A stretch of 49,013 bases of DNA, from positions 1 to 49,013 of the forward strand of contig NZ_PYLQ01000019.1 in NCBI RefSeq assembly GCF_003024685.1. Direction: 5' to 3'. This document shows, piece by piece, positions 18,824 to 47,665 of this stretch. The translations under genes and the position numbers were made by a program. Under the pieces are notes generated by a model that saw only the letters and a program-made list of their open reading frames with translations, was not told the DNA's origin and did not search any database. Source of the DNA: Faecalibacillus intestinalis (lineage in GTDB: Bacteria; Bacillota_I; Bacilli_A; Erysipelotrichales; Coprobacillaceae). Every line of letters starts with the position of its first letter. The stretch's first letter is position 1.

Positions 18824-18840
18824 TATTGGAGGTGCTTATT

Positions 18841-19107
18841 ATGAATATTCGTCCATCTGCAGCAATTAGACAAAATTATAATGAAATTGCAGACCTTTGT
18901 AGGACAAGTCAAGAACCTGTATATCTCACAAGAAACGGTGAAGGTGATTTAGTTGTTATGGATATGGAGACATTTAGTCGTAGGGAAAAAATGTTAGATT
19001 TACGTGAACAACTTCTTTCTGTAGAAGAAGATAGAATGGCAGGAAATAAAGGGTATACAATTGATGAATTAGATAAATACCTTGATGATATTATTTCAGG
19101 AGTATAG
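18841..19107 (+). CDS. Phd/RelB-type antitoxin
   Basis: An 88-residue antitoxin starting at ATG 18841 with GGAGG 8 nt upstream. The N-terminus has the Phd/YefM-type DNA-binding pattern: RPSAAIRQNYNEIADLC and PVYLTRNGEGDLVVMDMETF. The acidic C-terminus (ELDKYLDDIIS) would wrap the toxin. It has its own promoter with operator repeats, so it is probably autoregulated by the toxin-antitoxin complex. The toxin gene begins 3 nt after its stop. The pair likely stabilises the ICE after excision. Confidence 0.88.
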   Translation: MNIRPSAAIRQNYNEIADLCRTSQEPVYLTRNGEGDLVVMDMETFSRREKMLDLREQLLSVEEDRMAGNKGYTIDELDKYLDDIISGV

Positions 19108-19110
19108 AAA

Positions 19111-19425
19111 ATGGAATATGAGAAATATAAAGTAATTATTTCAGAAAAGGCAAAAAATATGCTTGCATCAAATATTGCTTTTATTGCTAAGGTAAGTGCT
19201 GATGCAGCAACAAAACAAAAAAAAGCGGTTATTGATGGTATACGATCATTAGAGCAAATGCCCAAACGCTATCCTTTTTTTAACGAAGAATATATACCAC
19301 CAAACAAATATAGAAAAATGTTTATAAAAAAATGGTATTTGATTTTATATCAAATTCAAGAAGATGTTGTATATGTTGATTATATACTTGATTATAGAAA
19401 AGATTATCAATGGTTAGATAAGTAA
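19111..19425 (+). CDS. RelE/ParE-type toxin
   Basis: A 104-residue toxin of the RelE/ParE superfamily, directly downstream of the antitoxin gene. Typical segments: YKVIISEKAKNMLASNIAFI at the N-terminus, IRSLEQMPKRYPFF in the middle, and a final strand pair with YRKMFIKKWYLILYQIQED and VYVDYILDYRKDYQWL. RelE-like members cleave mRNA on the ribosome, while ParE-like members poison gyrase; the sequence does not decide between them. The unit interrupts the transfer operon between the VirB6-like gene and prgI. Confidence 0.87.
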   Translation: MEYEKYKVIISEKAKNMLASNIAFIAKVSADAATKQKKAVIDGIRSLEQMPKRYPFFNEEYIPPNKYRKMFIKKWYLILYQIQEDVVYVDYILDYRKDYQWLDK

Positions 19426-29223: not shown

Positions 29224-30035
29224 ATGAAAATATTTGTCAAGAATCTAGAGGATGAGGTAAAAGAGATAAATGAGTATATACATTTTATGAATAAAAAATA
29301 TTCTAAACATAAAACCGTGAAGAGAAAATTAGCAAGTGTAAAGGCTTTTTATTCCTATTTAGAATATGAAGAAATTATTGAATATTCACCATTTAACAAA
29401 GTAAGAACAAAAATAAAAGAACCACATGTGTTACCAAAAACAATTCAAAAAGAAAATATAGAGAAAATTATTCAATATTTATTTGATAGAGTATCATCTG
29501 CTAAAACAGATTTTCAAACAATAATATCAATTAGAAATATTGCAATTATTGGATTACTTTTTTCAACTGGAATACGTATATCAGAATTATGTAATATAAA
29601 GGTAGCAGATATAAATTTTAATGAAAAAACTCTTAAATTTTTTGGAAAAGGATCAAAAGAAAGAATTTTATATATTGGCAATGAAACTGTTGTTGACTTA
29701 TGTAAGGAATATAAACAATTAAATGAATATGTTGCAGAAAATGATTATTTTTTTTAAATAGATTTGGAAAACAAATTTCTGATCAATCTATGCGAATTTT
29801 TCTGAAGAACATTGAATCTGAATTGAAGCTAACAGAACATATTACACCGCACATGTTTAGACATACATTCGCAACAACATTATTGGAAAAAGATGTTGAT
29901 ATTAGGTATATACAAAGTATTCTAGGACATAGTTCGATATCTACAACTCAAATTTATACTCATGTTACATATTTTAAACAGATAGAAATACTAACAGAAA
30001 AAAATCCTATAAATGATTATCGTTTGGGTGCTTAA
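29224..30035 (+). pseudogene. tyrosine recombinase remnant, frameshifted
   Basis: XerC/D-like recombinase in two pieces. Frame 1 (29224-29757) has the end of the core-binding domain and the first catalytic block, LLFSTGIRISELCNIKV (Arg I) and GKGSKERI (Lys). It stops just after eight T residues. One extra T would join it to frame 2 (29790-30035), which has [17 protein letters not shown] (His/Arg) and [15 protein letters not shown] (nucleophile Tyr). About 40 N-terminal residues of a usual XerC-type protein also seem missing. All catalytic residues survive, so the loss may be recent. It suggests that this accessory block once moved on its own. Confidence 0.85.
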
Positions 30036-31806: not shown

Positions 31807-31929
31807 ATGAAGAAAATTTTAAAAACATTAGTATTTGCAATTGCTGTTATTGGATCGATGACACCATCACAATATGGGTTATACAATCCAAAATGTCCTG
31901 TTAAACTAAAATTAAAAAAAGATGTTTAA
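31807..31929 (+). CDS. agrD: AgrD-like autoinducer peptide precursor
   Basis: A 40-residue precursor with GGAGGG upstream. It shows the three AgrD parts: an amphipathic/hydrophobic leader (KKILKTLVFAIAVIGSM), a short core, and a recognition tail, NPKCPVKLKLKKDV, matching the (Q/N)PxxPxxLK tail of clostridial cyclic-lactone peptides. Where most have Cys at the ring start, this has Ser21: S-Q-Y-G-L (21-25), or to Tyr26. Closure would therefore be a lactone. Cys30 lies in the tail. The response regulator, kinase and AgrB follow downstream. The gene is divergent from the broken XRE gene. Confidence 0.78.
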   Translation: MKKILKTLVFAIAVIGSMTPSQYGLYNPKCPVKLKLKKDV

Positions 31930-32136
31930 AAAAGAAAAATTTAATAAAAAATGTGATAAAATGATATAAAGATAATATATTATTTTATAAATGGAATCTT
32001 TAATTTATTGGTTCTTTTGAGAGATTTCAGAAATTATTATATTTTGTTTTCTCTTATATATTCCTGTTCAAAGGTAAGTAAGAACTTCAAATTGAGTTAA
32101 AGGTTCCTTTTTCTTTTAATGAGGGAGGAAATCATT

Positions 32137-32829
32137 GTGAAAATATTGATTATTGATGATGATAAAAAATTTACTAATACACTAAAAGATGATATTAAGA
32201 ATTTTTTTCAAAAAACTAACGATAAAGCCATAATCACGGTTATAAATGATGAATTCGATCAAGTTGATTTGTTTGATAATTATCATATAGTTTTTTTAGA
32301 TATTGATTTAATAACTAATAATGGTTTGATAATTGCTAAACAATTACGAGAATTGGATAACAATGTAATGATTGTGTTTATATCATCTAGAAGTAACCTT
32401 GTTTTCAAAACATTTGTTGTAAAACCATTTTATTTTTTAAGAAAGGCAAATTATAAGAAGGATTTGATTTATTTTTTTGAGATGTTAGATAATTATTTTA
32501 AGAAAAATACATTAATATCCTTAGATTCTAGAGCAACACGTGTTCATATACCCGTAGACTCGATTATTTATATTGAATCGAGGGAGCATCAATTAACTAT
32601 CCATTCAAAAAAGGATGTTTATTATGATAGTTCTAGTTTAACAGCTTTTTTGATAAAGTTATCAAGTTTAAATTTTATACAAATACATAAATCATATATT
32701 ATTAATTTAGATTATTTAAAGGGAATAAATAAAAATGAAATTTTGTTATTTGATAACACAAGGATACCAATTGGCAGAAAATATAGAGATTTATTTTATG
32801 AAAGGTATCAAGAATATTTAATAAAATGA
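32137..32829 (+). CDS. agrA: LytTR response regulator of the agr system
   Basis: A 230-residue AgrA-type regulator. I chose GTG 32137 because GGGAGG lies 8 nt upstream; an in-frame ATG at 32119 precedes that site. The receiver has DDD (7-9), phosphoacceptor Asp55 in IVFLDIDLI, and FISSRSN. The LytTR domain (about 125-225) has VDSIIYIESREHQLTIHS, NFIQIHKSYIINLDYLKG and IPIGRKYRDLF. It is followed with a 4-nt ATGA overlap by the kinase gene. It is the likely binder of the repeats upstream of agrD and lanT. Confidence 0.92.
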   Translation: MKILIIDDDKKFTNTLKDDIKNFFQKTNDKAIITVINDEFDQVDLFDNYHIVFLDIDLITNNGLIIAKQLRELDNNVMIVFISSRSNLVFKTFVVKPFYFLRKANYKKDLIYFFEMLDNYFKKNTLISLDSRATRVHIPVDSIIYIESREHQLTIHSKKDVYYDSSSLTAFLIKLSSLNFIQIHKSYIINLDYLKGINKNEILLFDNTRIPIGRKYRDLFYERYQEYLIK

Positions 32830-34055
32830 CATATTTTACACTTTTTATAAATTTTATTGAAGTCTTTTTATTTTCTGGATTTATTGCATATACTTTTAAT
32901 TTAAATAAAAAAATAAGGTATACTGCAATTATTGGTATGATAAATTACGCTATTACTAATATTAGTAGCTATTATTCGTATGATGGTGTTTTTTTAACGA
33001 TAGCCGTTCTTTTGGTTACTATATTTGGCTTAATAATTGAAACAAAAACTTTAAATTTTAAAATTTTATTTATACCCATTATTTATAATATAATTATAAT
33101 TTTATGTACCAGTATTTCCGTAGAAATTGTTACTTATATATTCTCTATAGATATATCAGAGATATTCTTAAATAGTACAATATATTATATAGCATGTATT
33201 TTATCTAAAATATTACAATTAATTTTATCGCTATTTATTTATATTGTTTTAGATAAATACGTTATAACATTGAAATTAAAAGAATGGTGGATTATTATTG
33301 CTACAGAATTTTCGATGATTATAACCATTGGATTATGTCTTTATTCATTAAATTTTGGGAAAATTAATCAAATGATTATAAAATCCTTATTATTTCTATG
33401 TGTTTTTTCAAATATTCTATTTTATTTAGTTATTCTTGTTTGTAATAAGAATTATAATGAAAAAATACAAAATGCAAAAAAATTACAAGAATATGCTTTT
33501 AAAAAGCAAAAATATAAGACTATTGAACATATAAAAAAAGAAACAGATATTTTAAATCATAGAATGTTTTATATATTATGGCAAATAGAATGGTTGTTAG
33601 AGAAAAAGGATTTATCTAAAATCAAAGAAACTATAGAAAAATATAAATCGTTATTGAATAAAAACCAATATGTAATAAATTCAGGAAATGATATTTTTGA
33701 TTGCTTAGTTTCTTTAAAATTATCTAAATGTTTTGATAATAATACTGATTTGAAATTATCTATCGCGATAGAAAAAAATGAATTTTATGATAATTTAGAA
33801 TTTATTGACTGTTTGAATACCTTAATTGATGCAATTATATTGAATAATGAAGATACAGATTTAAGTATGTTAGAAATTAATTCTTTTTTGGTAATCAATA
33901 TTTGTATAAAAGGAAATAAGGATAAAAATATTAAATTAAATACGGCTGTAGATAGTTTATCAAAAAAATATAACACAAAAACTAACATCTATTTTGATGA
34001 TAATAGCTATAATATTAGATTATCTATTTCTATTACAAATCGAGGTGAATTTTAA
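32826..34055 (+). CDS. agrC: AgrC-like sensor kinase
   Basis: A 409-residue sensor whose ATG overlaps the regulator stop. Six or so N-terminal membrane helices (residues about 1-205) form the peptide-binding part. The cytoplasmic region has an H-box-like segment, IEHIKKETDILNHRMFYILW (His about 240), and a C-terminal ATPase region that looks reduced: a DCLNTLIDAIILNNED N-box-like stretch is present but the glycine-rich G-box is poor. That pattern is common in AgrC kinases. It likely senses the AgrD-derived lactone and phosphorylates the regulator encoded just upstream. Confidence 0.85.
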   Translation: MTYFTLFINFIEVFLFSGFIAYTFNLNKKIRYTAIIGMINYAITNISSYYSYDGVFLTIAVLLVTIFGLIIETKTLNFKILFIPIIYNIIIILCTSISVEIVTYIFSIDISEIFLNSTIYYIACILSKILQLILSLFIYIVLDKYVITLKLKEWWIIIATEFSMIITIGLCLYSLNFGKINQMIIKSLLFLCVFSNILFYLVILVCNKNYNEKIQNAKKLQEYAFKKQKYKTIEHIKKETDILNHRMFYILWQIEWLLEKKDLSKIKETIEKYKSLLNKNQYVINSGNDIFDCLVSLKLSKCFDNNTDLKLSIAIEKNEFYDNLEFIDCLNTLIDAIILNNEDTDLSMLEINSFLVINICIKGNKDKNIKLNTAVDSLSKKYNTKTNIYFDDNSYNIRLSISITNRGEF

Positions 34056-34547
34056 ATGGAAAAATTATTACCAAAGAGTATAGAAGAAAGAAAATTATTG
34101 TTTAATTATGGACTTTTTATATTATTTTATAATTTATTTACATTTATTATAATTTTATTAATAGGAAAATTATTAAATGAAGAACAATTTATAATTTTAT
34201 TAATGACTTTGTATATACCGGTAAGAATAATTATAGGAGGCTATCATTGTAAAAAAGTGTCGACTTGTTTGTTGTTATTTAGTTTAATCATTACAATTAC
34301 AATTATTTTTTATAAACTGAATTTTAAAAATATTCTATTTTATTGGAATATACCAATATTTATATTAACTTTATATAGTATATTAAATAATAAAAGAAAT
34401 AAAATCAAAAATATAGCATTAATGATTTTCGTGGCTGAAATTATTCTTAGCTTTTTAAATAACATAATAGGTGCAGCTTCTTTTTATTCTGTAATGCTTA
34501 TTTCTATATTTTATATTGCTAATTTAATAGTAAAGAATAATAATTAA
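34056..34547 (+). CDS. agrB: AgrB peptide-processing protease
   Basis: A 163-residue polytopic membrane protease that cuts and cyclises AgrD. The catalytic pair is visible as His64 and Cys71 in IIIGGYHCKKVSTC, with the H-x6-C spacing of AgrB (His77/Cys84 in the staphylococcal enzyme). The N-terminus SIEERKLLFNYGLF and about five hydrophobic segments fit the family. ATG directly follows the agrC stop, so it is the last gene of a D-A-C-B operon; a terminator lies 10 nt downstream. Confidence 0.9.
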   Translation: MEKLLPKSIEERKLLFNYGLFILFYNLFTFIIILLIGKLLNEEQFIILLMTLYIPVRIIIGGYHCKKVSTCLLLFSLIITITIIFYKLNFKNILFYWNIPIFILTLYSILNNKRNKIKNIALMIFVAEIILSFLNNIIGAASFYSVMLISIFYIANLIVKNNN

Positions 34548-36007: not shown

Positions 36008-37786
36008 ATGAAAAAAGATAAGATCTATTGTTTTATAGATAGAATTAAATTCATTTTTAAACTCATAAAAGATTTAAAATTATCATTGTTGATTGTATGT
36101 TTATTTTTATGTGTTATCAATGTTATTTTGCCATACATTACTATGATTAACACACAAGAAATAATTAATAGAATTCAGATAGGGTTATCAATAAGACTTA
36201 TTTTAAAAAGGTTAATAATTTTTTTGATTTTAGGTATCTTATATATAATTTCCTCAAATTTATATAATTTTCTTATATTAAAGTATAAAGAATATTTATA
36301 TCTTGAATTAAATAAGAAATTTCTTGATAATTCTTTAAAATTTAATTTAAAAGATTTTGAAAATCCAGAAGTTTACAATATTATTCAAAGAGCCGAACAG
36401 GAAATAGGAATAAGACCTTATAATATAATTATTTCATTATTATCGATAATTTCACAAAGTGTCAATTTAATATCTGCATTTTTGATATTAACTAAATGGC
36501 ATTTAACATTAATCATTGGTTTTATATTGTTAGCTAGTTTTGCATCAAAATATTTCATTTCAATCAGTAAGAATGAATATGATATTTTAATGAATAGGAC
36601 AAACTATGAGAGAAAGTCATGGTATATTTCTCATTTATTAATAAAAGATGAATATATAAAAGAAGTAAGATTATTTGGATTATCTAAATATTTAATACAG
36701 CAATTTATAGAATTAAGAAGTCGTTTTTTTAAAGAAAATGTAGATGTATTAAAAAGGCAATATATATTTTCTGAAATATACCAGTTAATGAATTATGTCA
36801 TTTCATTTTTTATTATTTTTTTAGCAATATATGAGTCAACTCAAGGAATTATTCTAGTTGGGACAGCTATGACTTATATTAATACTTCTTCAAAGATTGA
36901 GAATGCTATACAGAATATAGTTAGTAATATTTTTGGAATATATAAGGATTCTTTATATATAGATAATATTAAAAAATATTTTAATTATGAATCAAATAAA
37001 TTTTATGGTAATAAAACTTTAAAAAATATAACAACTATAGAGTTTGTTAATGTTTCCTTTAAGTATCCAAATAGGGAAGTGTACGCTATAAGAAATACAA
37101 GTTTTAAAATAAAAAAAGGAGAAATCCTTGCAATTGTAGGGGAAAATGGTTCTGGGAAAACAACTATCATAAAATTATTAAATGGATTGTATGATGAATA
37201 TGAAGGAAATATATTAATAAATGGAATTGAAATAAGAGAAATTGATAAAAAAAGTCTAAGAAATTGTTTAGCAACATTGTTTCAAGACTATAACAAATAT
37301 CAATTTACAATAAAAGAAAATATAGGATTTGGATCAATTGATAACTTGGATGATATTGAAAAAATAAAATACAGTGCAAAAAAGGGCGGAGCAGATCAAT
37401 TTATAAATTGTTTACCTAATAATTATACTCAGCAAGTTGGATACTGGTTTGAAGGTGGAACCCAATTATCGGGTGGTCAATGGCAAAAACTAGGGCTATC
37501 ACGTTTGTTTATGAAAAATGCTGACTGTTTAATTCTAGATGAACCTACAGCTTCATTGGACCCTTTTTCAGAATTAGAAATATTTAAACAACTATATCAA
37601 AATAGTAATGAAAAAATAAACATTATTATTACACATAGATTTATTAATACTGTATTTGCAAATAAAATAATAGTTTTAAAGAATGGAGAGATAATTGAGA
37701 AAGGAAAACATGATGAATTATTAAAGCAAGACGGATTTTATAAGGATATGTTTGATATACAAAGTAGAGGAATAACATTGAATTAA
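36008..37786 (+). CDS. LanT-type lanthipeptide ABC exporter
   Basis: A 592-residue half-transporter (membrane plus ATPase domains) that most likely exports the modified precursor. Five to six N-terminal membrane helices are visible (for example LSLLIVCLFLCVINVILPYI and IIFLILGILYIISSNLY). The ATPase has Walker A GENGSGKTT (about 377), signature LSGGQWQKLGLSRLF (about 487), Walker B LILDEPTASLDP (about 509) and a switch His in IITHRF. There is no N-terminal C39 peptidase, as expected for class I systems that rely on a separate protease. It begins at ATG 36008 behind AAGGAGG and is the first gene of the cluster. Confidence 0.9.
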   Translation: MKKDKIYCFIDRIKFIFKLIKDLKLSLLIVCLFLCVINVILPYITMINTQEIINRIQIGLSIRLILKRLIIFLILGILYIISSNLYNFLILKYKEYLYLELNKKFLDNSLKFNLKDFENPEVYNIIQRAEQEIGIRPYNIIISLLSIISQSVNLISAFLILTKWHLTLIIGFILLASFASKYFISISKNEYDILMNRTNYERKSWYISHLLIKDEYIKEVRLFGLSKYLIQQFIELRSRFFKENVDVLKRQYIFSEIYQLMNYVISFFIIFLAIYESTQGIILVGTAMTYINTSSKIENAIQNIVSNIFGIYKDSLYIDNIKKYFNYESNKFYGNKTLKNITTIEFVNVSFKYPNREVYAIRNTSFKIKKGEILAIVGENGSGKTTIIKLLNGLYDEYEGNILINGIEIREIDKKSLRNCLATLFQDYNKYQFTIKENIGFGSIDNLDDIEKIKYSAKKGGADQFINCLPNNYTQQVGYWFEGGTQLSGGQWQKLGLSRLFMKNADCLILDEPTASLDPFSELEIFKQLYQNSNEKINIIITHRFINTVFANKIIVLKNGEIIEKGKHDELLKQDGFYKDMFDIQSRGITLN

Positions 37787-37852
37787 TTTTGTAAGAAAGT
37801 AGATAAAAGTGGTATTTAAATAAAAATGTATAAAGAAGAGAGGAAAAAATAT

Positions 37853-38470
37853 ATGGAAAATGTATTAGTTATTGGAGCTCATCCTGATGATATAGAATTA
37901 GGATGCATTGGCACAGTGTTAAAGCTAAAAAGTGCAGGTAAGAAAATCATTTATCTTGTTATGACGAATGGAGGAAATTGGGAAAAAAAAACTTACATAG
38001 ATAGGTTATGTGAAACAAAAAATGCAGTAAATAGTGTGAATTTTGATGAAGTAATTATAGGAAATATTAAAGATGGTCATTTGCTTCATAATCCCAAAAC
38101 TATTGATTATTTGTCAAATATTATAAAAAAGTATGAAATAGATACGGTGCTATGTCAATATTTTAAGGATTCTCATCAAGATCATGTAAATGTAGGGTTA
38201 TCTGCAATATCTATATCTTCGATTTGTGAAAATCTATTGTTTTATGAATCCTTAACTAGTACTGAATTTATACCTAATTTATTCATCGATATTAGTGATT
38301 TTGAGGAACAAAAGAAAAGTTTATTAAGAAAGTATACATCACAAATAGAAAAATATAAAAAGAGAAATCAAAATTTATTATCATACATAGAAGCAAAGGA
38401 CAAATTGAATGGAATTAAATCATGTTCCAACTATTCAGAAGGGTTAATGATTTATAAGATGAAAGGATGA
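37853..38470 (+). CDS. PIG-L/LmbE family deacetylase
   Basis: A 205-residue zinc-dependent de-N-acetylase. I chose ATG 37853 (GAGAGG upstream) so that the protein opens with the family strand VLVIGAHPDDIELGC; an upstream ATG at 37826 would add a Lys-rich tail. The metal site is AHPDD (9-13) with HQDH (about 111-114). Family members remove acetyl from GlcNAc groups in GPI anchors, mycothiol, bacillithiol and teicoplanin-type glycopeptides. It is followed by a glycosyltransferase gene, so the likely substrate is an N-acetylhexosamine placed on the peptide. Substrate is inference. Confidence 0.9.
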   Translation: MENVLVIGAHPDDIELGCIGTVLKLKSAGKKIIYLVMTNGGNWEKKTYIDRLCETKNAVNSVNFDEVIIGNIKDGHLLHNPKTIDYLSNIIKKYEIDTVLCQYFKDSHQDHVNVGLSAISISSICENLLFYESLTSTEFIPNLFIDISDFEEQKKSLLRKYTSQIEKYKKRNQNLLSYIEAKDKLNGIKSCSNYSEGLMIYKMKG

Positions 38471-38475
38471 TTAAA

Positions 38476-39789
38476 ATGAAACCTAAAGTAGTAGCATTTA
38501 CAGTTAAACATATCAGTCATATTTTTCCAATAATACCACTTTTAAAATCTATTGATAAGTGGGCAGATTTGATATGCTATATTGATAAGAAAAATATAAA
38601 TATCTTTATTGATAATAATTTAAATTTTAGGGTATATCCTGTAGATTTAGGCGATACTGATTATTTTGAAGAATCGCAACAAGAATTAGAAAAATTTGCA
38701 ATAGAGTTAGCTAATGAGAATTATGAAAAAGCACATTATCATTCGTTGAAACAAGATTTAATAGCATCACATACTATTAACAAAGAGTATTTTGATTTAT
38801 TACTGAAAGATATTAAACAGGAAAAAGTTGATTTAATTATCAGAGATACTGTAGATGTATATGGAGCAGAAATTGCAAGAATACTAAATGTTAAAACAGT
38901 TGGATATATAACTAATAATCTTTATAATGAGGAATACTTTTCTGCTCATGAAGAGGAGTTACATATTTATTTTGCTACATTGCCTATCGAAAATAAGCTA
39001 TGTAATGATTATTATCATAATTTTTTTAAAAAAATTAGAGGTATGAATAAGGAAGTTGAAAAAAAATTAAATGCAGTACACGTAGATTGTTATCATAATT
39101 ATTTATTAGAAGATGATTTTAATTTGATCTTTAGTACGAATTATTTACAACCCAAAGAGGCAATACCTAGTGATAATATTAATAATTATAAAATTATTTA
39201 TCCAAATTTTCATAAATTTGTGATTGAAGACAATGTGCCAGAAAGATTAAAAGAATTTATTTCTAAAAGTAAATATATTATTTACGTTTCTACAGGGTCT
39301 TTTCATTCGGAAGATAAAAAATTTTATAAAGCAATAATTAATTATTTTGCTAATTCAAAATTTAATTTGGTAATTTCTTGTTTGAAGTGGAATTCTGAAA
39401 TTAAAGACTATATTAGAAGTGAAAATTTAGATTCACAGGTTTATGTTGATAATTTTATCCCACAAAAATATGTGTTATCGCATGCAAATTTATTTCTTAC
39501 ATCAGGAGGATTTAATAGTGTATTGGAATCTATTTATTATGAGGTACCAATGATTGTTAGGCCTGTTTCATGTGAGCAAAGAATGAATGGAATTGTTATA
39601 GAAAAAAATAATCTTGGAATAACACTATATAAAAAAAATAAAAGATCCTTACGTGATGAAGTATATTTTTTATTGAATAATAAAGAAATAGAAAATAGTT
39701 TAAAAATGAATTCAAAAGATTTAAAAAATCATTTTGATAATAATTATGAGACAATAAATAAGAGAATAAGGAGATTGATTAATGGTTAA
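38476..39789 (+). CDS. GT1-like (MGT-type) glycosyltransferase
   Basis: A 437-residue GT-B-fold transferase. ATG 38476 has GAAAGG at good spacing; ATG 38467 overlaps the deacetylase stop but sits directly against the ribosome site. The N-terminus PKVVAFTVKHISHIFPIIPL matches macrolide/UDP-glucosyltransferase proteins that recognise small acceptors. The donor-site block is LTSGGFNSVLESIYYEVPMI followed by RPVSCEQRMNG (about 340-372), with Ser where His is usual in HGG. It likely attaches a sugar to Ser, Thr or Cys of the lanthipeptide. Donor and acceptor residues are not predictable here. Confidence 0.85.
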   Translation: MKPKVVAFTVKHISHIFPIIPLLKSIDKWADLICYIDKKNINIFIDNNLNFRVYPVDLGDTDYFEESQQELEKFAIELANENYEKAHYHSLKQDLIASHTINKEYFDLLLKDIKQEKVDLIIRDTVDVYGAEIARILNVKTVGYITNNLYNEEYFSAHEEELHIYFATLPIENKLCNDYYHNFFKKIRGMNKEVEKKLNAVHVDCYHNYLLEDDFNLIFSTNYLQPKEAIPSDNINNYKIIYPNFHKFVIEDNVPERLKEFISKSKYIIYVSTGSFHSEDKKFYKAIINYFANSKFNLVISCLKWNSEIKDYIRSENLDSQVYVDNFIPQKYVLSHANLFLTSGGFNSVLESIYYEVPMIVRPVSCEQRMNGIVIEKNNLGITLYKKNKRSLRDEVYFLLNNKEIENSLKMNSKDLKNHFDNNYETINKRIRRLING

Positions 39790-40483
39790 AGTATTTATAT
39801 TTAATGGCAGCTTGAATAGAAATTCTACAACTGACTATTTAATAAAAAATTTTTTAAATAAGTTAAAACAAAATAGTGACATTGAATTAAGTACATATTA
39901 CTTGAAAAATAAAGAGATTAGTAATTGCATAGGTTGTAGTAGATGTTTTCAAAATAAAGAATGTGTATTGGACGATAAGGATTGTTTTGATAAGGTTAGA
40001 GCAGAAATGTTGGATTCAGATATTATTATAATAGGAACACCGATATATGCAAACAATGTTACTGGATACTGTAAAACATTTATAGATAGAATATCGTCAT
40101 GGTGTCATATTTTTAAATTAATAGGTAAAAGAGGAGTCATTATTACTACAACAAGTAATTCTGGATTGGATGAAGTAAATAATTATTTATATAAAGTGAT
40201 GTCATACTTGGGATTGGCGGATATTGAAGTAATATCTCACCAATTAAATAAAGATAATATTAATAGAACGCTTGATGAAATAGATTATATTTCCTCTAAG
40301 CTAATAAATAATATTAAAAATAATGAAAAATTAAAATTTTCTAAACTTAGTGAGGAATCTTTTGAAAGATTGAAAGAATTTTATCTTTCGGAAAATGCAA
40401 ATATTAATGAAAAAAAATATTGGGAAGAAACGGGAATGATTACATGTGAATCGTTAGATAAAATTATTTATGAAAGGAGGTGA
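39782..40483 (+). CDS. flavodoxin-fold NAD(P)H-dependent oxidoreductase with Cys cluster
   Basis: A 233-residue flavoprotein-like enzyme. The FMN phosphate loop is FNGSLNRNSTTDY (about 6-18), and the second flavin loop is IIGTPIYANNVTG (about 81-93). Between them is CIGCSRCFQNKEC (about 50-62), a spacing seen in iron-sulfur flavoproteins of the FMN-reductase family. In a lanthipeptide cluster it may reduce dehydroalanine/dehydrobutyrine to D-amino acids or modify the C-terminal Cys; both are inference. It is not a LanD-type decarboxylase. The start overlaps the transferase gene by 8 nt, and its stop is 5 nt before the first precursor. Confidence 0.8.
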   Translation: MVKVFIFNGSLNRNSTTDYLIKNFLNKLKQNSDIELSTYYLKNKEISNCIGCSRCFQNKECVLDDKDCFDKVRAEMLDSDIIIIGTPIYANNVTGYCKTFIDRISSWCHIFKLIGKRGVIITTTSNSGLDEVNNYLYKVMSYLGLADIEVISHQLNKDNINRTLDEIDYISSKLINNIKNNEKLKFSKLSEESFERLKEFYLSENANINEKKYWEETGMITCESLDKIIYERR

Positions 40484-40488
40484 AGAAA

Positions 40489-40656
40489 ATGTCAAATTTA
40501 GATGAATTTGATTTGAATCCGGTTGTTAATGTAGAAGATAATAACTCTATTGAACCACATTCAGTTATGTCTGTTTTACCGACTATTTCAATAACAATTA
40601 ATCCACCAACTTCTACATATACGACAAATCCAGGATACACAGAATCAAAATGTTAA
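40489..40656 (+). CDS. lanthipeptide precursor 1 (divergent, 55 aa)
   Basis: A 55-residue precursor with the strongest ribosome site in the cluster (AAAGGAGGTGA). The leader, NLDEFDLNPVVNV, carries the F-x-L-D/N class I recognition box. The core is Ser/Thr/Pro-rich (MSVLPTISITINPPTSTYTT) and ends in NPGYTESKC, identical to the three other precursors. Only one Cys is present, the last residue, so at most one lanthionine ring can form. The central core differs completely from the other copies, suggesting a distinct product or a partner peptide. Confidence 0.82.
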   Translation: MSNLDEFDLNPVVNVEDNNSIEPHSVMSVLPTISITINPPTSTYTTNPGYTESKC

Positions 40657-40683
40657 TAATAAAATGAAAGGAGTGTAAGAAAA

Positions 40684-40872
40684 ATGCCAAATTTAGATGA
40701 ATTTGATTTAGATCCAGTTGTAAGTACAGCAGAAAATGGAAATGATGGAATCAGTCCACAAAGTTACAGTGTTACAACAAAACCTTGTCTTGTAACAGAT
40801 GTTATTTCGGTATTATCACAAGTATCAACAAGTCTTTCTACAAATCCAGGATACACAGAATCAAAATGTTAA
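40684..40872 (+). CDS. lanthipeptide precursor 2 (62 aa)
   Basis: Class I precursor. Leader residues 1-26 contain EFDLDPVVS, the F-x-L-D box recognised by LanB, and end in GISPQ, close to the GASPR processing site of nisin, so cleavage after Gln26 is likely. The 36-residue core runs from SYSVTTKPCLVTDVISVL to NPGYTESKC, with 14 Ser/Thr and only two Cys (35 and 62). Most Ser/Thr must therefore stay free, be dehydrated only, or be glycosylated. First of three near-identical tandem copies. Confidence 0.9.
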   Translation: MPNLDEFDLDPVVSTAENGNDGISPQSYSVTTKPCLVTDVISVLSQVSTSLSTNPGYTESKC

Positions 40873-40899
40873 TAATAAAATGAAAGGAGTGTAAGAAAA

Positions 40900-41088
40900 A
40901 TGCCAAATTTAGATGAATTTGATTTAGATCCAATTGTAAGTACAGCAGAAAATGGAAATGATGGAATCAGTCCACAAAGTTACAGTGTTACAACAAAACC
41001 TTGTCTTGTAACAGATGTTATTTCGGTATTATCACAAGTATCAACAAGTCTTTCTACAAATCCAGGATACACAGAATCAAAATGTTAA
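40900..41088 (+). CDS. lanthipeptide precursor 3 (62 aa)
   Basis: Second copy of the 216-bp tandem unit. It is identical in protein to precursor 2 except Val12 to Ile in the leader, next to the F-x-L-D box. The core is unchanged, so the mature product would be the same. The gene has the same GAAAGGAGTG ribosome site. Confidence 0.9.
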   Translation: MPNLDEFDLDPIVSTAENGNDGISPQSYSVTTKPCLVTDVISVLSQVSTSLSTNPGYTESKC

Positions 41089-41115
41089 TAATAAAATGAA
41101 AGGAGTGTAAGAAAA

Positions 41116-41304
41116 ATGCCAAATTTAGATGAATTTGATTTAGATCCAGTTGTAAGTACAGCAGAAAATGGAAATGATGGAATCAGTCCACAAAGTTACA
41201 GTGTTACAACAAAACCTTGTCTTGTAACAGATGTTATTTCGGTATTATCACAAGTATCAACAAGTCTTTCTACAAATCCGGGATACACAGAATCAAAATG
41301 TTAA
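41116..41304 (+). CDS. lanthipeptide precursor 4 (62 aa)
   Basis: Third copy of the tandem unit. The protein is identical to precursor 2; one silent change is visible in the Pro codon of NPGY. The downstream sequence departs from the repeat directly after the stop. Amplified identical genes argue for dosage of a single core peptide. Confidence 0.9.
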   Translation: MPNLDEFDLDPVVSTAENGNDGISPQSYSVTTKPCLVTDVISVLSQVSTSLSTNPGYTESKC

Positions 41305-41327
41305 CAGTATTATTAAATATAAACTAA

Positions 41328-41414
41328 TAGTAGAAATGTGATGATATAATTATGAACTTTAAATCGCAACTTTAAAGTATATTCAAAATTAATTAATACC
41401 ATCACATTCTACTA
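41328..41414 (+). promoter_or_regulatory. large stem-loop between precursors and lanB
   Basis: TAGTAGAAATGTGATG (41328-41343) pairs with CATCACATTCTACTA (41400-41414), with one bulged A. An inner hairpin, ACTTTAAA...TTTAAAGT, lies in the loop (41356-41378). No T tract follows, so it is more likely a processing or stability element favouring precursor over enzyme mRNA than a strong terminator. Confidence 0.6.
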
Positions 41415-41515
41415 TCTACTATGTTATGTAAATTACATATAATAATTTAAAGGTATTTAACATAAATGTCAATAATTAATATAAAATAATAGATATATTT
41501 AAATGGGGTGATTAT

Positions 41516-44437
41516 GTGGAAAAAAATAAAATTTTATGTCTAGATAATTTCTATGTAAGATATGCAAACTTATCATTTGATAAATTTGAAAAGGTAGCAA
41601 ATCAAAATAACTATACGTTATTTAATGAATTTTATAATAATACATTTAAACAAGATATATTATTAACATCTTCATCATTGTATGCAACTCTTTCTAAAGG
41701 TTGCAAAGATGATAATATATGCTCTCTTTTAAAATATATAATACGTTCATCTACACGTTGTACACCATATAGTTCGTTAAGTGGAGTAGGATTGGGAAGA
41801 TTTACAAACAAAAACAATTATAACATAGATATTCCTAAATTATATTTTAGGGTAGATAATGAATGGTTGCTACCAATTTTACCTAAATTAGAACAAGAAA
41901 TACGTAATGACATTTACGTTGTTAAAAATAAAGATATAGAAGAAAATGATAAAAAAATTGTTAACCACTGGGTTACACATTATTATTTAGAAACAAACAA
42001 GAATACGAATGAAGTAATTATTAATAATACAAGTGTTGTAAAAAAGGTATTAGAATTAACACAATCATATATAAAAAAAGAAGATTTAATAAATAATCTA
42101 TTAGAAATATATGGCTCAGAAAGATTAAGTGATATAAGTAAATTGCTTGATCAACTACAAAAATATGAGATTTTGGTAAGCAATTTACGTTTTTGCCCAC
42201 TTATAAATGATCCATTGAAAGAAATAATTAAAACAGGAGAAAAATTTAATTATCATTCTCCATTACTAGAAAAACTAGGAAAATTCTATTATGATTTATG
42301 CAATCTAAATATAGATTTTTCAATTCCAAAATATGAAAGATTGATAAATGAAATGAAAGATGTATATAATTGTAAAAATATAATTAGAGTTGATAGTTAT
42401 TATGAATCTGTTTTAGATATTAATATTGAAGAAAAAAAGAAATTAGAGGATTATGCAAATTTTATAAATAGTTTTTCTAATGATGAAGATAAGTACATTA
42501 ATCATTGTAAATCTTTTATTGATAAGTTTGGGAATGTAAGGGTTCCTGTAAAATATGCATTTGATAAATATAAAGGAATAGGATTACCAACTAAAATATT
42601 TCGAAATGAAGAAATTTCTGATAACGGAAAAAGGCTTATACATTATCTTAATGAAAATATAAAAAGTGGTAGTGTTATAGATCTATCAAATTTTATGGTT
42701 GAGGATAAAAATAAAGAGAAATATAGAACTAACATGGAATTGGCGTTCTATCCAATTTTAAACGGAACAGAATTAAATTATATTACTAGTCCATTTTGTG
42801 CTTCAAATAATTTATTTGAATCATTTGGTAGATTTAATTATATATTCAGAGAAAATAATTCTAAATTTTTTAATAAAGAGGATATTGATTATGTAGAGAT
42901 AACATATATTCCTAAAAATAGTAGAGTGCAAAACGTGATAAATTGTACAACAGATTGTAATTACTATTTAGAATATACAACCAATACTAATATTCTTGGG
43001 AAAACTAGATTAACCCTTGATGATATTAGTGTTAGTTCTAACGGAAATGAATTTTTTTATTATAACAATATAACAGGAAAACAAATTGCTTTTAACGCAA
43101 ATAATAAAGCACTACGAGATTTTATGCCACCAATTTTAAATTTTATTCTTGATTCTTCTCAAAGAAAAATAAAAAATAATTTGTATTTTTTTAATTTGAT
43201 TAATAGATGGTTAGAAGGATTTGATATTCTACCAGAAATTCGATATAAGAACGTAGTAGTTAGTCCACAAAAATGGAAATTGGATAACAATAAGATAAAT
43301 CTTACAAAAAAACAAAGTTATGAGATTTTTTGTACAAAATTGGACGAAAAAATAAAAACAGATCAGTTGCCTAGTAAGGTGTTTTTTGAATATATGGATA
43401 ACAGACTTTTGTTAGATTTAAATAATGATTTACATAAAAAAATATTATTTCAACAAATTAAATCTAGTCCAAAAGGAATATTAGTAAAAAACTATTTTAC
43501 TGATAATGACTTGATTGTTATAAATGATAGCGGAGAAAAACATGTTTCGGAGCTTATTTTTCAATTTGCTGGAGATAATACTAATTATACAATTCATGAG
43601 ACGTTGTCCTTTAGTAAAGAAAGTAATCGTACCTTATTTCCTTTTAACGAATGGACTTATTTTAATATTTATGTAAAGGATTATTTTCAAGATGAATTTT
43701 TAACAAACTATCTTATGCCATTTTTATTACATGAAAAAACTTATTCATTTATAAGAGAATATTTCTATATAAGATATATAGATGAACTTCCACATATTAG
43801 ATTAAGAGTAAAATCTTCGTATATTAATAAATTTATGGTACATTTTAACGAATTTATTTTAAAGTGTAAAGATATGGGATATGTAGAGAAATATTCTATT
43901 AATGTATATGAAAGAGAGACAGAAAGATATGGTTATGGAAATATTGAAAGATTTGAAAAAATGTTTTGCGAAAATACATATTTTTCATTGGAATTGTTAT
44001 ATTTATTAACAAAAAAAAGAATTGATTACACCAAAGAAAGTCTATATATTATGACAGTGCTTTATATATTGTTTAATTTACATCAAGATGTTTCACAAGT
44101 TTTAAGTATGTATAAGACTATAAATTTTAATAAAAGGGAATATCAAAAAAAATACAAATTTATCGAAAACATTATGTACCCGGATGAAAATTTTATTAAA
44201 TTAAGAAAAAGCTCTTTAGGTACAAAACTATATAGTATATTAGAGAATAGCAATAATCAAGTGTTGGAATATTTCAATTGTGAAAACTATGATAATGACC
44301 AGTTGATAAGTTATTTTCATATGTTTTTTAATCGCTTATTAGGAATTGATAGACGAAAAGAAAATGAATTAAACTGTTATGTTGAAAGGATATTTTATGG
44401 AATTACAAGTAGACAAAAATATTCTAAAACCAAATAG
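41516..44437 (+). CDS. lanB: full-length class I lanthipeptide dehydratase (LanB)
   Basis: A 973-residue LanB that dehydrates Ser/Thr of the precursors using glutamyl-tRNA. GTG 41516 follows GGGGTG; an overlapping ATG at 41514 stops soon. The glutamylation domain opens with the usual block IIRSSTRCTPYSSLSGVGLGRF (shown in part, about 72-93; RxTPxxxxxGvxxG). The C-terminal SpaB-type elimination domain runs from about 718 (WTYFNIYVKDYFQDEFL) through YIRYIDELPHIRLRVK and YGYGNIERFEKMF to about 960. Both domains are present, unlike split thiopeptide enzymes. The 3' end overlaps the lanC start by 41 nt. Confidence 0.93.
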   Translation: MEKNKILCLDNFYVRYANLSFDKFEKVANQNNYTLFNEFYNNTFKQDILLTSSSLYATLSKGCKDDNICSLLKYIIRSSTRCTPYSSLSGVGLGRFTNKNNYNIDIPKLYFRVDNEWLLPILPKLEQEIRNDIYVVKNKDIEENDKKIVNHWVTHYYLETNKNTNEVIINNTSVVKKVLELTQSYIKKEDLINNLLEIYGSERLSDISKLLDQLQKYEILVSNLRFCPLINDPLKEIIKTGEKFNYHSPLLEKLGKFYYDLCNLNIDFSIPKYERLINEMKDVYNCKNIIRVDSYYESVLDINIEEKKKLEDYANFINSFSNDEDKYINHCKSFIDKFGNVRVPVKYAFDKYKGIGLPTKIFRNEEISDNGKRLIHYLNENIKSGSVIDLSNFMVEDKNKEKYRTNMELAFYPILNGTELNYITSPFCASNNLFESFGRFNYIFRENNSKFFNKEDIDYVEITYIPKNSRVQNVINCTTDCNYYLEYTTNTNILGKTRLTLDDISVSSNGNEFFYYNNITGKQIAFNANNKALRDFMPPILNFILDSSQRKIKNNLYFFNLINRWLEGFDILPEIRYKNVVVSPQKWKLDNNKINLTKKQSYEIFCTKLDEKIKTDQLPSKVFFEYMDNRLLLDLNNDLHKKILFQQIKSSPKGILVKNYFTDNDLIVINDSGEKHVSELIFQFAGDNTNYTIHETLSFSKESNRTLFPFNEWTYFNIYVKDYFQDEFLTNYLMPFLLHEKTYSFIREYFYIRYIDELPHIRLRVKSSYINKFMVHFNEFILKCKDMGYVEKYSINVYERETERYGYGNIERFEKMFCENTYFSLELLYLLTKKRIDYTKESLYIMTVLYILFNLHQDVSQVLSMYKTINFNKREYQKKYKFIENIMYPDENFIKLRKSSLGTKLYSILENSNNQVLEYFNCENYDNDQLISYFHMFFNRLLGIDRRKENELNCYVERIFYGITSRQKYSKTK

Positions 44438-45575
44438 TTTTATTGATGAGTATAATAAAGAGCTATTAAAAAGAATATATAATAATAATTTTGATCTTTA
44501 TTATGCAAAAGATATTATTATATATCTATTAATCCTATATAAAGATACAGGAAGTAATTTCTATAAAACATTGATTTTGAAAATTAATGATGAATATATG
44601 AAGAATTACAAGCATTATACGTTTAATAATTCTTTTTGGTATGGGCATAGTAGTTATTTGTATATTTTAAATAAAATGCATGAATATGGAATAATTAAAG
44701 ATGGAAATTTTAATAGTTATAAAAATATACTTTTAGAAAATATTAGAGATATTGTTAATGGAAATTATATTCAAAATCATCGATGGTATGACCTATTTAA
44801 TGGTTTGAATGGTAATTTGACTTTTTTATTACAATATGATGATATCCAAATTAAAAAGGAAGTCTGCATAGTAGTTGACTACATTGTATCTGAATTAAAT
44901 AAATTATCATTAAATCAAGATAATATATTTGTGATTTATGAAGAAAATTACATTGATAAAAAAATGAAAGAAATATTTAATGAAAATTATATTGATTTAG
45001 GTGTGGCACATGGTTTAATTAATGTTCTTCAAATATTATATAAAATTTACAGAAAATATAATTATAGTCAAGCCAAGAATGGCATGAATATACTAATCGA
45101 TTTTTACTATAATTTAATGTTAAGGTTTGATGGGAAAATTGATAGTTTAGAGAGAATATCTAGTGATAAAAATATTACGTATGCTGGAGATAAAAATATT
45201 TATAGATGGGGAAATGGAGTTCAAACAACGATAATATATTTAACATATTATTGTAAGCTGATTGGAAACAAAAAATATAATTTTTTTGAAAAAATGATAG
45301 ATATTGAAAATTTAAAAAAAGACATATCTAATTTGAATGAAACTAAAGCATTTATTAATGGAGTAAGTGGTTATATTTTTAATTATTGCTTAATTTTAGA
45401 TACTGTTAATAAAAATGATGAAGAAAACAAATTGAAAATTTATAAAATTTTAAATCAATTACTTGAGAACTTTGAATTTACTGATAACTTTTCTCTTATG
45501 GAAGGAAATTTATCCCCTGTAATATGTATGGCATTTTTTAGTAATGAGATTATTTTTGAAATGTTGGGTTTTTAA
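44397..45575 (+). CDS. LanC-like protein without zinc ligands
   Basis: A 392-residue protein in the LanC position, starting at ATG 44397 (GAAAGG upstream) inside the lanB end. The alpha-toroid repeats and GVAHGLINVL (His205) of LanC cyclases are recognisable. The zinc site is not: RWGNGVQTTII has Trp271-Gly272 where LanC has Trp-Cys, and FINGVSGYIF has Ile320-Asn321 where LanC has Cys-His. All three ligands (two Cys, one His) are therefore replaced. Either cyclisation is non-enzymatic or another enzyme's task, or this protein acts as a scaffold. Length is normal and no frameshift is seen. Confidence 0.82.
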   Translation: MELQVDKNILKPNSFIDEYNKELLKRIYNNNFDLYYAKDIIIYLLILYKDTGSNFYKTLILKINDEYMKNYKHYTFNNSFWYGHSSYLYILNKMHEYGIIKDGNFNSYKNILLENIRDIVNGNYIQNHRWYDLFNGLNGNLTFLLQYDDIQIKKEVCIVVDYIVSELNKLSLNQDNIFVIYEENYIDKKMKEIFNENYIDLGVAHGLINVLQILYKIYRKYNYSQAKNGMNILIDFYYNLMLRFDGKIDSLERISSDKNITYAGDKNIYRWGNGVQTTIIYLTYYCKLIGNKKYNFFEKMIDIENLKKDISNLNETKAFINGVSGYIFNYCLILDTVNKNDEENKLKIYKILNQLLENFEFTDNFSLMEGNLSPVICMAFFSNEIIFEMLGF

Positions 45576-45582
45576 AGTGATT

Positions 45583-45644
45583 TCATGAAAAAATAGTGTT
45601 GTTTATGAATATATATATTATTAACTTTTGATTATGAATATAAT
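45583..45644 (+). promoter_or_regulatory. LytTR-like direct repeat and promoter of the 148-aa gene
   Basis: TCATGAA (45583-45589) and TTATGAA (45603-45609) have a 20-bp period. TATAAT (45639-45644) lies 29 nt after the second repeat. The same box and spacing occur before the 61-residue gene at 30573. Confidence 0.55.
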
Positions 45645-45668
45645 TTATTTGAAAAGGAGGAATTAATT

Positions 45669-46115
45669 ATGAAATTTGTTATTGGAAAGAAAAAAGAAGC
45701 TCATTGGGAGATAGATGAACATTTGATTCGAGTGTATTCTAAACCGCAGATTGTTTTTGGAAAATTAAAATTAGAACATCAAATTTATTTAGACAATATA
45801 GAAAGTATTGAAATCTACTTTACAAGTCTACCTATGGGTGGAGCTGCAAATAGAGTTGGTGTATTTTCTTATGCACACCAAGTAATGTTCAATATTAAAA
45901 TAAAAAATGAAAAAAATGCGATATTTAATATATTAACAGGTACAAATAGGGATGAATTAATTCAAGCGATAAATTATCTAAAAAATAAAAATATTACTTT
46001 TATAGATCAATATAATTTAATTGCTTTAATAAATGATAAAAATAAAAAAATTTGGGATGGGGTTGAACAAATTATTAAAGAAAATAATTTACCATATGTA
46101 AATCATAAAGTATAG
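45669..46115 (+). CDS. hypothetical 148-aa protein beside the lanthipeptide cluster
   Basis: A soluble 148-residue protein with AAAGGAGG upstream. The first 90 residues look like alternating strands (HWEIDEHLIRVYSKP, HQIYLDNIESIEIYFTSLP, HQVMFNIKIKNEKNAIF) and could be a PH-like barrel, followed by helices. There is no signal peptide or membrane segment. It has its own promoter, with a repeat shared with the gene at 30573, so it may belong to the first LytTR regulon and not to the lanthipeptide operon. An immunity role is possible by position but unsupported. Confidence 0.6.
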   Translation: MKFVIGKKKEAHWEIDEHLIRVYSKPQIVFGKLKLEHQIYLDNIESIEIYFTSLPMGGAANRVGVFSYAHQVMFNIKIKNEKNAIFNILTGTNRDELIQAINYLKNKNITFIDQYNLIALINDKNKKIWDGVEQIIKENNLPYVNHKV

Positions 46116-47290: not shown

Positions 47291-47317
47291 TCATACATAA
47301 AAAAGAAGGTGATGAAG

Positions 47318-47665
47318 TTGATAGAAAACATAGTAAGAGGAGAAATCTATATGGCTGATTTGGATCCATGTATAGGCAGTGAACAAGGTGGTATCAGACC
47401 TGTTGTGATTATTCAAAATAATACTGGCAATAGATTTAGTACAACTACTATTGTTGCACCGATTACAACAAAATTAGGCAAAGCATATTTACCAACACAT
47501 TTGGTTATAAGTAAAAGAACAGGAATTTATAAAAAATCTATGATATTACTTGAACAAATAAGAATCATTGATAAAAGTCGGCTGTTAGAAAAACTAAGTA
47601 TTTTAGAGGATCAGGAAATCGATTTAATGGATAGGTCTTTACGAATAAGTATTGGTTTAAATTAA
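47318..47665 (+). CDS. mazF: MazF/PemK-type endoribonuclease toxin
   Basis: A 115-residue MazF-like protein. TTG 47318 is best spaced from GAAGGTG; in-frame GTG 47309 and ATG 47312 overlap that site. The family core is clear: RGEIYMADLDPCIGSEQGGI, RPVVIIQNNTGNRFSTTTIV and PITTKLGKAYLPTHL. These toxins cut mRNA at short sequences. No MazE-like antitoxin gene is adjacent, which is usual for MazF copies at the recombination end of this ICE family, where the gene may act in control rather than killing. Confidence 0.9.
   Translation: MIENIVRGEIYMADLDPCIGSEQGGIRPVVIIQNNTGNRFSTTTIVAPITTKLGKAYLPTHLVISKRTGIYKKSMILLEQIRIIDKSRLLEKLSILEDQEIDLMDRSLRISIGLN

Follow-up and report, generated by a model that had tools for sequence, protein, structure and literature searches.

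Among described lanthipeptide systems, those of nisin and subtilin, which pair LanB with LanC, have in common with the locus analyzed here a full-length LanB with the catalytic residues of NisB, a leader of the F-x-L-D type with an ISPQ-like end, and the LanC fold; our locus differs from them by a LanC-like protein devoid of the zinc ligands, by the presence of a GT1 glycosyltransferase (GT), a PIG-L deacetylase, and a flavoprotein, and by a neutral to anionic, Cys-poor core. Work on the cyclases of class III states that cyclase domains outside that class strictly conserve the zinc ligands, and the class III enzyme ThurKC, which bears Ser, Phe, and Asp at the zinc-ligand positions, still cyclizes (PMC10604976). 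The cyclase domains of class III, ThurKC among them, thus resemble the protein described below in having a LanC fold with three ligands replaced (S, F, and D in ThurKC; G, I, and N here), but they are domains, whereas here a stand-alone LanC-like protein accompanies a class I LanB. Flavin-dependent LanJB enzymes such as CrnJ convert dehydro residues into D-amino acids (PMC10373908), and the flavoprotein family of our locus also adjoins the synthetase and precursor in lactocin S and in further LanM clusters that carry a flavodoxin/FMN_red gene (LanJB type, as CrnJ); unlike our locus, these clusters are class II and have neither GT nor PIG-L. Glycosylated lanthipeptides are represented in class III by NAI-112, which carries a deoxyhexose on Trp, and in class V by cacaoidin, which carries a sugar on Tyr; both differ from our locus in class and in sugar, and no PIG-L enzyme is known to us from their descriptions. 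Finally, the PIG-L deacetylases of teicoplanin and A40926 offer a precedent, since they act on a GlcNAc that a complete peptide antibiotic already bears (PMC4101496), and this is the logic that we predict here; however, teicoplanin and A40926 are nonribosomal glycopeptides whose free amine is acylated afterwards.

The window, that is, the whole stretch of DNA that was analyzed, is the entire contig C11 (49,013 bases) from the 2.79-Mb genome of Faecalibacillus intestinalis, whose family also includes Candidatus Stoquefichus and Thomasclavelia. The cluster occupies positions 36008–46115, with every gene on the + strand and tightly spaced; the PIG-L, GT, flavoprotein, and precursor genes follow one another with spacers or overlaps of just a few bases, and a clear ribosome-binding site lies ahead of nearly all of them. 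Likely start codons were assigned by these sites for PIG-L (37853), GT (38476), the first precursor (40489), and the LanC-like gene (44397). The exporter, PIG-L, GT1, flavoprotein, four precursors, LanB, and LanC-like genes named in the original prediction are all present and co-oriented according to open reading frames and Pfam/NCBIfam searches, the LanC-like identity being based on homologs and a predicted fold. The unit nonetheless runs past position 45575 to end with a gene for a 148-aa protein, and an agr-like set (31807–34547) precedes it:

31807..31929, + strand: candidate AgrD autoinducer precursor, inferred from the GLY[NQ]PKxP motif in common with a small open reading frame of the producer's second element
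32119..32829, + strand: AgrA-like LytTR response regulator (sequence; homologs next to other clusters)
32826..34055, + strand: AgrC-like sensor kinase (sequence; homologs next to other clusters)
34056..34547, + strand: AgrB-like processing protease (Pfam AgrB, E 8.8e-13)
36008..37786, + strand: ABC exporter without peptidase domain, LanT-like (Pfam ABC_tran, E 4.5e-31)
37853..38470 (open reading frame from 37826), + strand: PIG-L/LmbE-family zinc deacetylase, 205 aa (Pfam PIG-L, E 6.1e-19; invariant residues)
38476..39789 (open reading frame from 38467), + strand: GT1 (MGT/UGT-like) glycosyltransferase (UDPGT, E 6.8e-16; MGT, E 9.5e-28; structural model)
39782..40483, + strand: FMN_red flavoprotein, candidate dehydroamino-acid reductase (FMN_red, E 3.7e-23; CxGCxxCFx4C motif)
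40489..40656, + strand: precursor A1, FDLN leader, one C-terminal Cys, ending in GYTESKC
40684..40872, + strand: precursor A2, FDLD leader, ending in GYTESKC
40900..41088, + strand: precursor A3, core identical to that of A2
41116..41304, + strand: precursor A4, core identical to that of A2
41327..41415, + strand: RNA hairpin between precursors and LanB (-24.8 kcal/mol for 41305–41424, z -4.9)
41516..44437, + strand: full-length LanB dehydratase (Lant_dehydr_N, E 2.5e-63; Lant_dehydr_C, E 6.5e-33; catalytic residues)
44397..45575 (open reading frame from 44379), + strand: LanC-like cyclase without any of the three zinc ligands (homologs, predicted fold)
45669..46115, + strand: 148-aa cluster-associated protein, candidate immunity protein (no Pfam family; two other genomes have homologs within their clusters)

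The precursors display the features of class I, namely an FNLD-type leader and a core of Ser, Thr, and Cys. Of the four F-x-L-D leaders initially announced, three are indeed FDLD and nearly identical in DNA, while the first precursor has FDLN and a different core. A2–A4, spaced at 216 bases over 40684–41304 and differing by 1–2 positions per 200 bases, are a recent tandem amplification. The hairpin that follows them is likely an attenuator or stabilizer; an Rfam search gave no match.

Searches with LanB, GT, and LanC located homologous clusters in at least six other loci, each of them with the GT: on a further contig of this genome, C12 (L006), the producer's second element; in Ca. Stoquefichus S9_Bin2 (G028, L007), Ca. 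Stoquefichus massiliensis AP9 (G032, L009), and a further member of the family (G033, L008); on a 4.4-kb contig of Thomasclavelia MAG.139 (L016); and in a Mycoplasmataceae-labelled MAG (L017). The LanB of G032 is broken into two frames at an A run, and the related locus of Enterococcus ratti (L020) seems to have decayed, with a broken GT frame and a LanB short at its start. Across 316 genomes of the order, a GT profile gave matches at E < 1e-168 in five genomes, at six loci altogether, the next best match standing at 1e-28; matches at 1e-28 and weaker, together with one from Blastocatellia (L021), were classed as generic and left out of the locus set. LanB is found in 5/6 of these loci, and the sixth, the short Thomasclavelia contig, carries a precursor and the flavoprotein; a seventh locus, outside the order, has the arrangement LanB-GT-LanC. 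Within the 316 genomes, this GT clade was found only in lanthipeptide loci of this kind. A 395-genome sample of the class yielded no further GT-clade locus, GT searches of plasmids and of viral contigs gave no match, and the E. ratti GT retrieved only generic macrolide-type GTs from plasmids. The recurrence of the enzyme set bears out the view that it is a real unit, and the cluster as a whole is both genuine and unusual.

The LanB protein aligns with NisB nearly end to end and has the glutamylation and elimination residues in place (RxxxRxTP, Asp, Arg, ExxRYG, and His...NR). The LanC-like protein has no LANC_like match in Pfam, while four homologs with related ligand changes exceed the Pfam cut-off. 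Its structural model (pLDDT 67, moderate) suggests that the LanC fold is kept, MadC and NisC being the only PDB matches below E 0.001 (Foldseek E 2e-4 and 4e-4). At the positions of the NisC ligands Cys284, Cys330, and His331, it bears Gly, Ile, and Asn (WGNG and INGV in place of WCYG and CHG), a loss that makes the system of the window a variant rather than a standard class I system. The four nearest variants (G028, G032, G033, and the Mycoplasmataceae-labelled MAG) have Gly, Cys, and Ser/Asn/Tyr there and have lost two ligands, the C12 and E. ratti proteins keep the zinc ligands, and the window protein groups with the other zinc-less ones with weak support; zinc may have been lost once or twice. 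One could suppose that the LanC-like protein is a dead remnant and that the cluster yields a linear dehydrated glycopeptide whose free C-terminal Cys bears the sugar (S-linked, glycocin-like), as the loss of three ligands in the window and of two in its nearest homologs would allow, and as the presence of a C-terminal Cys only, in A1 and the G033 precursor, would also fit. We deem this quite improbable, because every cluster keeps the frame of the LanC-like gene open and its HG motif is invariant, because an intact LanC goes together with this C-terminal motif at the C12 and E. ratti loci, and because class III cyclases without the same ligands make thioethers (PMC10604976). By analogy with ThurKC, which cyclizes without the zinc ligands, it is possible that the LanC-like protein is active as a cyclase.

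The flavoprotein, whose best PDB relative is S. pneumoniae SP1951, was considered as a novel element and rejected as such because all five of the plasmid relatives inspected (5/5) adjoin lanthipeptide synthetases: it is a common lanthipeptide companion. The systems concerned are lactocin S, mersacidin-family, lichenicidin-like, and LchA2/BrtA2-like ones, all with LanM, and a LanB/LanC system of Paraclostridium sordellii. The latter, on plasmid pCS1-5 (L060 2276–9923), is a class I cluster that lacks a GT, encodes a flavoprotein of this family, and has precursors rich in Cys. By analogy with the LanJB type, the flavoprotein is probably a dehydroamino-acid reductase, and a CxGCxxCFx4C motif common to all GT-linked flavoproteins and to some others suggests an iron-sulfur center. 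LanD-type decarboxylation of the C-terminal Cys was ruled out, since the cluster has no HFCD flavoprotein and its flavoenzyme is of the FMN_red family.

The model of the glycosyltransferase (pLDDT 89) adopts a GT-B fold and matches Bs-YjiC (Z 30.8, 4.0 Å over 352 residues), CalG4, and macrolide glycosyltransferases (Z 28–31 for these matches). Its invariant residues include SH (the N-terminal catalytic His), GGxNS, E, and EQ (the donor-site Gln), and the usual His ahead of the donor-motif GG is replaced in this clade. On the side of the peptide, 8/8 GT-linked precursor types, that of E. ratti included, bear near their C-terminus a [YF]TE followed by a Cys within a few residues. This motif is kept across differing leaders and cores, its Thr and Cys being invariant and its Tyr becoming Phe in C12, and it does not occur in the precursors of the GT-less P. 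sordellii cluster. The C-terminal Cys is the sole Cys of A1 and of the G033 precursor, and the cores of all GT-linked types except E. ratti are neutral or acidic, unlike nisin. Judging from this conservation, the [YF]TE...C residues are the best candidates for acceptor or ring residues, although the sugar acceptor may lie outside the shared motif. As to the reaction itself, the donor may be UDP-GlcNAc and the acceptor the peptide.

Another role for the GT would be self-protection: acting as OleI-type macrolide glycosyltransferases do, the GT (and PIG-L) would keep the peptide inactive within the producer, which would export an active form free of sugar. The MGT family to which the GT belongs does include self-immunity enzymes, and no LanFEG-type immunity transporter is found in the window cluster; we nevertheless give this scenario little credence, considering that the GT gene is placed amid the tailoring genes, that a conserved motif of the precursors goes with it, that the cluster has no sugar-removing glycosidase, and that PIG-L is left without a role. 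A fast-evolving protein of 140–177 aa with no Pfam family, a candidate immunity protein, accompanies the clusters (window 45669–46115; L007 2481–2903; L009 6460–6903; L008 4309–4734; L012 591–1124), five of these proteins having been aligned, with a weak alignment.

In the PIG-L enzyme, the metal ligands of the family (HxDD plus a His), the general base, and the conserved Arg and His are all present, with H19, D21, D22, R60, H117, and H120 invariant. The nearest named family is that of the bacillithiol deacetylase BshB, an identity that we rejected: the score for BshB1 is 97.2 bits versus a cut-off of 182.5, and the HPDH motif of BshB, preceded by an Arg, is replaced by [ST]HQDH. In plasmids, the best relative (42% identity) lies in an NRPS-type cluster with an ATP-grasp enzyme and an MFS transporter, on a plasmid of Virgibacillus halodenitrificans (L063 6025–6705). 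The PIG-L clade is found in 3/316 genomes of the order, all among the five GT-clade genomes (3/5 vs. 0/311; hypergeometric 2e-6, kinship uncorrected). The original prediction was to be refuted if homologous clusters lacked the transferase and deacetylase genes, and it withstands this check only by half. The GT is constant, but PIG-L was not found in genome G033 or at the E. ratti locus and lies ~14 kb off in C12; its neighbor is the GT in the window but LanB in G028 and the ABC gene in G032. Since one homologous genome does not have it and another carries it apart from the cluster, PIG-L is an accessory of the cluster family. It is far better conserved between clusters (65–77% identity) than GT (32–56%), LanB (24–50%), and LanC (23–34%), the ABC exporter standing at 44–65%; this contrast suggests a constant small substrate, and PIG-L may act on an unchanging group such as GlcNAc, although a recent spread of PIG-L by itself would produce an equal pattern.

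This shifting position, and the absence of PIG-L from some loci, would also be expected if the GT added a neutral sugar, for example glucose, with PIG-L serving another reaction or being a passenger of the mobile element. GT1 relatives with known structures, among them the structural neighbors of our GT, use mostly UDP-glucose or dTDP-sugars as donors, which fits such a sugar as well. But a mere passenger would be expected elsewhere too, when the PIG-L clade is confined to GT-clade genomes, and in the window it is closely coupled to the GT; on balance, a neutral sugar of this kind seems unlikely.

The agr-like quorum-sensing set of the window also adjoins clusters in L007, L008, L009, L012, and L016. 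The candidate AgrD ends (...SQYGLYNPKCP in the window and ...SISGLYQPKKP in C12) suggest control by a cyclic peptide, perhaps a serine lactone. As for the supposed location on an integrative conjugative element, it is plausible given the conjugation and recombinase genes. The stretch at 12–25 kb carries genes for a relaxase, a coupling protein, a VirB4-like ATPase, and lysozyme/CHAP proteins, and a tyrosine recombinase gene (29224–30035) is broken into two frames, its counterpart being intact beside the second cluster (L006 9073–9996); with these conjugation genes and the disrupted recombinase, the cluster is likely on a mobile element. The C11 and C12 contigs resemble sister mobile elements with a lysozyme/CHAP gene in common. 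At its start, the mobile region encodes a large surface protein with SpaA repeats and an anchor-like C-terminus (71–1795); it also contains an antitoxin/RelE-like pair (18826–19425), and a PemK/MazF-type toxin gene (47309–47665) lies downstream of the lanthipeptide cluster.

Altogether, the reading that we tentatively favor, at somewhat short of an even chance, is that of a sugar-tailored class I lanthipeptide. LanB would dehydrate Ser and Thr of the core, the flavoprotein would convert some dehydro residues into D-amino acids, and the zinc-less LanC-like protein would guide thioether formation independently of metal, as class III cyclases do, or act as a scaffold. The GT1 would then add an N-acetylhexosamine, most likely inside the C-terminal [YF]TE...C motif, from which PIG-L, where present, would strip the acetyl to leave a positively charged hexosamine. 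The ABC protein would export the peptide, and the agr-like system next door probably controls expression. The analysis directly supports the gene set and its recurrence, the catalytic residues in LanB and PIG-L, the folds predicted for GT and LanC, the missing zinc ligands, and the C-terminal motif; of these, the original prediction had noted neither the zinc-ligand loss nor the motif, and it had not recognized how widespread the flavoprotein is beside lanthipeptide genes. The sugar, its donor, its attachment site, and every chemical step on the peptide are what we infer, including the hexosamine on Ser/Thr or on the C-terminal Cys that the original prediction had suggested; an amino-sugar product is the leading reading, and an unmodified or neutral-sugar product is possible. 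The broader proposal, namely a class I lanthipeptide family that receives a glucosamine-type sugar at a conserved [YF]TE...C motif by a dedicated GT1/PIG-L pair and relies on a metal-independent class I cyclase, appears conceivable but rather doubtful.

In agreement with the original prediction, no described class I lanthipeptide with this enzyme set was found in the literature searched, which lay for the most part outside subscription journals. If the above were true, then, as far as our searches and knowledge reach, no amino sugar would have been described before on a lanthipeptide of class I, and no zinc-free cyclase within that class. Because the zinc ligands are reported to be strictly conserved outside class III (PMC10604976), the cluster family makes metal-independent cyclization testable in a simple two-enzyme system, and its GT would offer a new means of glycosylating peptides.
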